DNA of 64,000 bases from Candidatus Korarchaeum sp. Lineage in GTDB: Archaea; Korarchaeota; Korarchaeia; Korarchaeales; Korarchaeaceae. Location of the stretch: assembly GCA_020833055.1 (NCBI GenBank), contig JAJHQZ010000003.1, positions 1 through 64,000 on the forward strand, read 5' to 3'. The notes under the pieces are model-generated. The model was not told where the DNA came from, did not search any database, and was given only the letters and a program-made list of their open reading frames with translations. Positions 17,349 to 21,083 of the stretch are shown here, piece after piece (the first letter of the stretch is position 1; every line of letters starts with the position of its first letter). Made by a program: the position numbers and the translations under genes.

Positions 17349-18164
17349 TCATTTCCTCTTGACCTCAAACTTTATCCTCCCGAACCCCATGTTCCTCATA
17401 TATCCTACTCCTATCAGTTCCCCGAACATGAGGTAAGTAGCTAGCCACGTAGCCATCTCCTCATGCGAGGATCTATGCCATTCGGGATGATCTATCACCT
17501 TGTAATTCACCCATCCCATGAAACCGACGAATGTCCTCCCTCCGCTCATCTCAACTGGTTTAGTTGTGCATAATTCGTATCCCGTCTCTACAACACTGAG
17601 ATCGGCCCATGTAGCGACTAACCTAGTTTCCGGGCCTTTCTTAGGTGAGAGAGCATTCCAAGCTGAAGCTAGAGAGGAGACTATAAGCCTCGGATTTGGA
17701 TAGAGGTAGCAGTACTGAGAAGTCGCCCTCTTGAAGCACGTCGGTGTGAGGAAGCGGAGCCTGAAATTCTTGCACGGATTTTCCTGAATGAAGTCCAGTA
17801 TATTTATCTCTTGATGCGAGTAAGATGTCACTTTAAATGGGATATCTTTTATCGTTATAGTCGGCTTTTTGTATATCCAAGATTTTATTGCATCACTTAC
17901 CACATTATCATTAAATATTATTATAGAACCTCTGTACTCAGATCCTATGTAAACAGGCTCCTCTAAGGAGCCGCAAGGCATCTGCTTCCTCTCTTTCCTG
18001 AGGGCCTCAACGAATATCTTTTTAGAGGAGAGTTCCAAGGCTTTCGCGAGCAGGGGATCCTGAGAGGATATCGATCTCAATACAGCAGCCCTGAAGAGAG
18101 GTCCCGTGAAGGGTATCACACCATCCCCCTGACTGGTCGCTTCGACCTCTATTATCGAGATCAT
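17349..18164 (-). CDS. cas6: CRISPR repeat endoribonuclease Cas6
   Basis: 271 aa. Double ferredoxin-like RAMP protein: the C-terminus carries the glycine-rich Cas6 signature (GELIGVGYMRNMGFGRIKFE), and the middle part contains FRLRFLTPTCFKR, a typical Cas6 strand-loop. Cas6 cuts pre-crRNA within the repeat. No other cas gene and no repeat array occurs in this window, so it is solitary here and must work on arrays elsewhere, if any. Promoter-like ttttaatatgg near 18200 and GAGGGA precede the ATG. Divergent from the UPF0200 kinase gene. Confidence 0.85.
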   Translation of the reverse strand: MISIIEVEATSQGDGVIPFTGPLFRAAVLRSISSQDPLLAKALELSSKKIFVEALRKERKQMPCGSLEEPVYIGSEYRGSIIIFNDNVVSDAIKSWIYKKPTITIKDIPFKVTSYSHQEINILDFIQENPCKNFRLRFLTPTCFKRATSQYCYLYPNPRLIVSSLASAWNALSPKKGPETRLVATWADLSVVETGYELCTTKPVEMSGGRTFVGFMGWVNYKVIDHPEWHRSSHEEMATWLATYLMFGELIGVGYMRNMGFGRIKFEVKRK

Positions 18165-19858: not shown

Positions 19859-19863
19859 TCTCT

Positions 19864-19885
19864 CCACCGAGGGAGGCGGAGGTGG
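19864..19885 (-). promoter_or_regulatory. hairpin masking the ribosome-binding site of the radical SAM gene
   Basis: On the minus strand CCACC (19885-19881) can pair with GGTGG (19868-19864) around a 12-nt pyrimidine-rich loop. The GGTGGAG is the only plausible Shine-Dalgarno sequence for the ATG at 19858 and includes the GTG alternative start. The first CCACC base is also the last base of the big closing helix, so the two helices meet end to end. Confidence 0.4.
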
Positions 19886-20021
19886 GGGTCACCCGGCGCG
19901 AAGTACGGAGGGTGGCGTCCCAAGGGACGCCCATGATCGGGGCCAACGAGGGGCCCCTTCCCCCGCACTATATCGCGATAGCCCACGGAGGGGCTAAGCC
20001 CGCAGAGGGCCGGGTGACCCC
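19885..20021 (-). ncRNA. GC-rich structured RNA or 5' leader, unknown class
   Basis: About 137 nt, far richer in GC than its surroundings. The ends pair perfectly over 13 bp (ggggtcacccggc with gccgggtgacccc). Inside are at least two further stems: ggggcc/ggcccc with a 7-nt loop (19957-19939) and ggcgtcc/ggacgcc with a 4-nt loop (19931-19914). A TATA box on the minus strand is centred 26 nt before the first G, so transcription should start at the helix. It matches none of the families I can recall (5S, SRP, RNase P, known archaeal riboswitches). It may be an independent ncRNA or the riboswitch-like leader of the radical SAM gene. Confidence 0.6.
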
Positions 20022-20042
20022 ATGACTTACTGTATGAGGTGA

Positions 20043-20055
20043 GATAAATACCTTT
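20043..20055 (-). promoter_or_regulatory. TATA/BRE of the structured RNA
   Basis: Minus-strand gaaaggtatttatc has a purine-rich BRE-like part then a TATA box centred at 20047, exactly 26 nt from the start of the closing helix at 20021. Confidence 0.55.
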
Positions 20056-20225
20056 CGATGCTCAAATGATTGCACTACCACTCCCTCACTTATGTTTTTA
20101 GAACTTCAGCGAATATAAAATTGAATGATATCTTCATTTTAATCTAATTCTGAGTTAATTATGAGAACTCATTTGATATTCTTCCCCGGCGAATCTCCAG
20201 GAGGAATCTTTATCTTTTAAGACCA

Positions 20226-21083
20226 GTGAAAGTGCTCGTGCTGATAGACAGAGTCAGGTTCGGACCCGCCGGATATCCGATCGATGCCCCCAGGGAGAGA
20301 GCCTTCTCTTACCTGAGGGAAATAGGTCTCGATGCTATGGAGTATCAAGCTGTGAGAGCTATACCTAAGAACGAAGATCTACTCTCTTGGGTGAGGAATG
20401 AAGCCTCTGAAAACGATATAATGCTAACCCTACATGCCCCATACGCGATAAACCTCTGCTCTAAGGAGAAAGGTGCGGCTAGCGTTAAGAGGCTAGTGGA
20501 CTCGGGGATAGCCGCGAGTAAGATTGGCGCTAATCACGTCACGTTTCATCCAGGGTATTATGGGAAGATGAGTGAGGAGGATGCCCTTAAAACAGCTATA
20601 GAATCTTTGAAGAGAGTAAGGGAAGAACTGATATCTCTAGGAATAAATCTGGAGCTAGGACCTGAGACAACGGGTAAGCCATCCCAGTTGGGATCCCTCG
20701 ATGAGGTCCTGAGGATGGCGGAGGAGGTGGATGGAGTTAGGCCCACGATAGATTTCGCGCACATCCACGCGAGAGAGGGAGGGAGCATAAGGAGTAGGGA
20801 GGATTATGAGAGGATCCTGAAGATCATTGAGAGAGAGCTGGGGGATCTGAACGGTCTCGTAATTCACTTCACTGAGGTCGAGCTCACTAAATCTGGAGTA
20901 GGGGAGAGGATGCATCACGATCTAGGGTCAGGCTATGGACCTCCATTCGAACCTTTAGCCGAAATTATAGCGGAATATGGCTTGAGATGGCTCATAATAT
21001 CCGAGTCTCCTGTGCTCGAGAGGGACTCTATTAAGATGAAGGCCCTCTACGTGGACGCTCTCACTAAGGTGAAAAATTTATAA
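20226..21083 (+). CDS. endonuclease IV-like TIM-barrel protein (AP endonuclease family 2)
   Basis: 285 aa. Metal-ligand motifs of the Nfo/xylose-isomerase-like barrel appear in order: LHAPYA near 80, FHPGYY near 109, LELGPETTGK near 142, TIDFAHIHA near 180, VIHFTEVE near 218, HHDLGSGYG near 235 and ISESP near 259. This is the full set expected for endonuclease IV, which cuts DNA at abasic sites, so AP endonuclease is likely, though sugar isomerases share the fold. Start is GTG at 20226. Followed after 25 nt by tRNA-Asp. Confidence 0.8.
   Translation: MKVLVLIDRVRFGPAGYPIDAPRERAFSYLREIGLDAMEYQAVRAIPKNEDLLSWVRNEASENDIMLTLHAPYAINLCSKEKGAASVKRLVDSGIAASKIGANHVTFHPGYYGKMSEEDALKTAIESLKRVREELISLGINLELGPETTGKPSQLGSLDEVLRMAEEVDGVRPTIDFAHIHAREGGSIRSREDYERILKIIERELGDLNGLVIHFTEVELTKSGVGERMHHDLGSGYGPPFEPLAEIIAEYGLRWLIISESPVLERDSIKMKALYVDALTKVKNL

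Follow-up and report, generated by a model that had tools for sequence, protein, structure and literature searches.

The intergenic DNA ahead of a radical SAM gene in the window (the whole 64,000-nucleotide stretch that was analysed) encodes a real and new structured RNA that is specific to one korarchaeal family. We favour, tentatively and at a probability just short of even, the reading that this RNA is a structured 5' leader of the radical SAM unit, itself new and korarchaeal-family-specific, that controls translation. The features referred to below are as follows.

19885..20021, minus strand: structured RNA of a new family, 137 nt, with its 5' end (20021) at the predicted transcription start
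20009..20021, minus strand: 5' strand of the closing helix P1, 13 bp, with covariation
19885..19897, minus strand: 3' strand of P1, with covariation and a comparison with shuffles
19979..19996, minus strand: hairpin P2, UAGCCC/GGGCUA
19960..19968, minus strand: 5' strand (GUGCGGGGG) of a helix enclosing P4 and P5, prediction only
19939..19957, minus strand: hairpin P4, GGGGCC/GGCCCC, with a 7-nt loop ending in UU
19914..19931, minus strand: hairpin P5, GGCGUCC/GGACGCC
19903..19911, minus strand: 3' strand (CCUCCGUAC region) of the helix enclosing P4 and P5, prediction only
20044..20050, minus strand: TATA box TATTTAT, centred 26 nt before the RNA
20051-20056: purine-rich, BRE-like GAAAGG adjoining the TATA box
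19862..19881, minus strand: predicted hairpin hiding the Shine-Dalgarno (SD) sequence, CUCCGCC-UCCCUC-GGUGGAG, 7 bp with a 6-nt loop
18794..19858, minus strand: radical SAM gene (PF04055; weakly PFL-activase/NrdG2-like), conserved start ATG at 19858-19856
20226..21083, plus strand: divergent TIM-barrel gene (PF01261, endonuclease IV/xylose isomerase-like), syntenic in the family

The closing helix P1 (GGGGTCACCCGGC/GCCGGGTGACCCC) joins 20021-20009 with 19897-19885 in 13 perfect base pairs, compared with 10 bp for the longest terminal helix among 2000 shuffles. Both this perfect helix and the 137-nt length of the body, as given in a preliminary description of the DNA, were borne out. The minus-strand RNA has a fold energy of -90.7 kcal/mol versus -72.2 +/- 4.3 in shuffles (z=-4.3), and the opposite strand also folds better than shuffles (z=-4.6), so the folding energy alone cannot give the strand. 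The minus strand is assigned as the RNA on the basis of the TATA box, the position relative to the gene and the excess of G-U (14 cells) over A-C (4 cells) in the helix columns, as expected for an RNA on that strand. P4 is the most constant element between genera, where its loop usually ends in AUU. The predicted helix that encloses P4 and P5 may be replaced by a local hairpin (CCAC/GUGG) in modelled folds of other genus members. As had been described, the window RNA contains two copies of the octamer CCCTCCGT, but the octamer is not conserved in the homologs. A kink-turn at the base of P4 (GGAA/GAUC) was rejected, as it was not upheld in other genera in an alignment read by eye.

P1 is 10-16 bp long in every genome that carries the RNA, with a sequence that is quite different among genomes, as exemplified by GGGGACTGCCCGG/CCGGGCAGTCCCC in G002 and GGGGGCCGCTGC/GCAGCGGCCCCC in G019. 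Relative to a tree-aware null, which distributes the same substitutions over the same tree, the share of paired cells in P1 is 97.3% versus 86.5% expected (p=0.0002), and P1 contains 7 double-changed pairs versus 1.9 expected (p=0.0002). Compensatory changes among homologs, the absence of which had been named beforehand as evidence against the RNA, are therefore present in P1. Pairing of P2 is kept across genera beyond the same null (p=0.0014), P4 is consistent with pairing (p=0.07), and P5 is kept across the genus without independent covariation. An R-scape-like per-pair scan of the family alignment, which has too little power, returned none of the proposed single pairs as significant. The strongest covarying pair, columns 36 and 150 of alignment A5, connects the P2 loop with the stretch before the P1 3' strand and reads U-U, A-G, A-A, G-C and C-A; it is significant but was rejected as a helix pair because it is not Watson-Crick, and it may reflect either a tertiary contact or shared ancestry. 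The equally good folding of both strands would also be expected from a DNA-level inverted repeat or from chance GC-rich intergenic sequence that is not RNA at all. Such an origin is extremely improbable, as the covariation of P1 on the tree-aware null speaks strongly against it, as do the bias of G-U over A-C, the TATA spacing conserved in 22/22 genomes and the presence in five genera.

With the family model R2 the RNA was found in 22 of 394 archaeal genomes, all of one family (five genera) and with one copy each; the R2 hits are mostly its own training members, which makes the E-values optimistic. Within the genus, blastn located the RNA in 14 of the 15 other genomes, with 72-88% identity where the match was long, and the G002 copy gave only a short blastn match that was then confirmed by reading the sequence. 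The best matches of covariance model R1, trained on the window's genus alone, are in G022, G023 and G017, in each case precisely at the site ahead of the radical SAM gene, whereas in G016 and G020 it returned only chance matches away from the gene. The remaining family genomes, read directly, have the same architecture upstream of the gene. In all 22 genomes the RNA is directly upstream of the radical SAM gene and on the same strand (a pseudogene in G003), and in the genus, except for G002, the divergent TIM gene accompanies it beside the RNA. The conserved synteny was not accepted as proof that RNA and gene are linked, as the whole block of TIM gene, RNA, radical SAM gene and kinase gene is syntenic. 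RNA and gene are both absent from G013, but the flanking genes are missing too and the genome is 70% complete, making this case uninformative. A Cas6-type CRISPR endoribonuclease gene is located at 17349-18164 of the window, two genes beyond the radical SAM gene, and adjoins the kinase gene in G003.

Outside the family, R2 gave no match in the 394 archaeal genomes, and the RNA is absent at the radical SAM homologs (G025 by reading, the others by R2). A DNA pattern scan of 84,980 genomes gave nothing credible outside the group, its matches being nine archaeal contigs from genomes already found and two unrelated bacterial records unconfirmed by the model. BLAST against plasmids produced no match for the RNA. 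The earlier statement that the RNA fits no RNA family agrees with Rfam 15, in which neither the window RNA nor five other homologous loci gave a match at the gathering cut-off, and the best sub-threshold match at lax thresholds reached 16.8 bits compared with a cut-off of 79. No paper on such an RNA in Korarchaeota was found in the open literature that was searched.

The minus-strand TATTTAT at 20050-20044 is centred 26 nt ahead of 20021, where the closing helix begins, exactly the spacing given for the TATA box in the preliminary description, and 22 nt lie between the motif and the 137-nt stretch (minus strand of 19864-20055). The TATA centre is 24-27 nt from P1 in 22/22 genomes, as measured by script or, for G000, G002, G018 and G019, where a near-palindromic P1 was matched on the other strand, by eye. 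Because of this spacing, the first base of P1 (20021 in the window) should be the transcription start. No second promoter is visible in the sequence between the RNA and the radical SAM gene (a spacer of ~13 to 110 nt), which makes co-transcription of the two the simplest inference.

The spacer from the P1 3' end to the conserved ATG (19858) measures 26 nt in the window, not the 27 nt first reported, and contains GGTGGAG at 19868-19862. The CCACC/GGTGG hairpin proposed for hiding this site exists, but CUCCGCC/GGUGGAG is a stronger alternative, and the 5' arm of the latter overlaps a CACCUCC motif matching the 16S anti-SD sequence. CACCUCC motifs, which we take to be equal to that 16S sequence, occur in the spacer (19884-19870 in the window, and in homologs) of almost every genus member whose gene is intact, G014 being an exception. 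The predicted SD pairing is CACC/GGUG, from CACCUCC, in most other genus members and CAUC/GGUG in G022. Overall, the hairpin is predicted for most genus members with an intact gene, is weak in G022 and G023, is missing in G014 and is not evident in G016, G019, G020 or most other genera. As a 4-bp hairpin easily arises by chance, we regard this modelled element as a lead. From genus to genus, the interval that separates RNA and gene shows no conservation. In G019 (L051) the radical SAM gene seems to start ~13 nt after the closing helix, and the usual WFLRPD N-terminus is absent. In G016 and G020 (L048/L049) ~100 nt with further GC-rich hairpins separate RNA and gene, and a spacer hairpin followed by UUUU might act as a terminator there. 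In most genomes the sequence between RNA and gene contains no visible U-run terminator or processing site.

For a leader, the following mechanism can be proposed. Transcription would start at P1, 24-27 nt after the TATA box, and the first ~137 nt, folded as a closed domain of several hairpins, would remain part of the mRNA and influence how the adjoining downstream gene is translated. The CACCUCC motifs of the genus spacer, as mimics of the anti-SD sequence, could pair with the SD sequence of the gene. By binding either a ligand or a protein, which could be the product of the gene itself, the folded domain may then set whether the hairpin hides the ribosome site; both the switching step and its effector are what we infer from this arrangement. 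The leader is favoured by the universal adjacency and the lack of a visible separate promoter for the gene, whereas the absence of the SD hairpin from G014 and most other genera disfavours it.

The same order of promoter, closed domain, short spacer, SD hairpin and radical SAM enzyme would suit a classical metabolite riboswitch responding to SAM or another cofactor, which is a sub-case of the leader reading, not an additional one, and is unlikely. SAM is a reagent or cofactor of radical SAM enzymes, so the gene gives no clear clue to a ligand, and none of the Rfam riboswitches matched. The SD hairpin is unconserved outside the genus except weakly in G022 and G023. Invariant columns between genera are nearly all in helices, with almost no unpaired position invariant and no conserved unpaired core found in an inter-genus loop alignment that is uncertain. 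This argues against a metabolite pocket and also counts against the leader in general. Together with the observation that no other gene in these genomes carries the element, the poor conservation of unpaired bases makes a strict metabolite riboswitch less likely.

Two genomes of the family bear on whether the RNA acts in cis or in trans. In G002 the surroundings are wholly different, with the kinase gene and the PUA gene on other contigs and no TIM gene next to the RNA, yet the RNA and the radical SAM gene are still together. This joint relocation fits a linked unit and is counted in favour of the leader, as is the hairpin that is predicted for most of the genus and would hide the SD sequence, but a promoter shared by RNA and gene would by itself lead one to expect it. 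In G003 ~29 indels and numerous stops disrupt the radical SAM gene, and the TIM gene is no less damaged, while both the kinase gene and the PUA gene remain intact. TIM-barrel and radical SAM genes are here both pseudogenes in one genome (L014 / L092), and their joint loss suggests that they may belong to one shared pathway. Compared with its G014 counterpart, the G003 RNA has 15 substitutions, no indels and 33/33 helix pairs kept, and the TATA box is retained. When the 15 substitutions were placed at random with the spectrum of the pseudogenes, ~4-5 pairs were broken and none in 0.35% of trials, giving p=0.0035 for neutral decay (0.0018 with P3); G003 is a single metagenome-assembled genome in which substitutions before gene death are inseparable from later ones. 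The indel density of the G003 pseudogenes predicts roughly 3-5 indels in the RNA, compared with the 0 seen. With its pairs intact and no indels beside indel-riddled flanking genes, the RNA seems to have been kept without the gene, which disfavours the leader.

In a relative-rate comparison, on the other hand, the RNA has 12 changes on the G003 branch versus 0 on that of its sister G014, an excess absent from the intact genes (kinase 31:43, PUA 26:31) and therefore indicative of relaxed constraint. This faster evolution where the gene died favours the leader, and it makes G003 less than unambiguous proof that the RNA is independent. One of the G003 results is hard to reconcile with a pure leader, and the other with a purely independent RNA.

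The close rival to the leader, and quite possibly the correct reading, is an independent gene for a trans-acting ncRNA. The radical SAM gene would be carried along on the promoter of this ncRNA, both being part of one transcript, and processing at P1 would free the RNA. It would account for the TATA box and fold that remain in G003 between two pseudogenes, the single copy per genome, the GC-rich P1, which is 10-16 bp long and begins at the predicted start site, the unconserved RNA-gene interval between genera and the poor conservation of unpaired bases, as in a protein-bound scaffold. It is less easily reconciled with the 22 genomes, in which the RNA is never away from the radical SAM gene or its pseudogene, with the 12:0 acceleration in G003, and with the lack of a visible U-run terminator or processing site before the gene in most genomes. 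That the element is a discrete ncRNA of a new class in this korarchaeal family, trans-acting, located within the 5' leader of the radical SAM mRNA and selected after gene death, is conceivable but on the unlikely side; if true, one transcript would give two products. Of the two layouts offered in the preliminary description, the leader is supported by adjacency, the lack of a visible separate promoter for the gene, G002 and the SD hairpin, and the free ncRNA by G003, whereas responsiveness to a ligand, as in a riboswitch, is unsupported.

A constitutive 5' structure without switching, serving as a stability cap or a ribosome standby site, would be in line with the high stability of the GC-rich closed domain located at the 5' end and with the little sequence conservation outside the helices between genera. 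It is quite unlikely, as a multi-hairpin architecture in which P4 and its loop are kept in five genera is more than a cap needs, and the fold is kept in G003 without the gene. The structured leader controlling translation remains the reading that we favour. A covarying single-locus RNA kept through five genera offers structural, ligand-binding and RNA-seq studies a defined object, and G003, where the fold has outlived the gene, makes the choice between leader and ncRNA directly testable.

To our knowledge, only a small number of structured leaders or regulatory RNAs have been described in archaea. Archaeal H/ACA and C/D guide RNAs are likewise small structured RNAs, but no archaeal guide-RNA family scored here and no ACA box follows P1 by eye. 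RNase P RNA, SRP RNA and 5S rRNA share with the korarchaeal RNA a single copy, high GC content and a long terminal closing helix; they were rejected as its identity, as the genome has clear separate copies elsewhere and their models do not score at this locus. Translational riboswitches and structured leaders, such as those for SAM, TPP and fluoride, also place a promoter-proximal closed domain ahead of a ribosome-binding site, which a hairpin can sequester. In contrast to these, the korarchaeal RNA has no Rfam match, precedes one gene only, lacks a conserved unpaired pocket between genera and has an SD hairpin that is not conserved in the family. Autoregulatory protein-binding leaders, for example those of ribosomal proteins, are lineage-restricted, single-locus and helix-rich and lie upstream of one gene. 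Although the downstream protein is here a radical SAM enzyme, in which a domain search found no RNA-binding domain, the korarchaeal RNA is like these leaders in being restricted to one lineage, present at a single locus, rich in helices and positioned before one gene.
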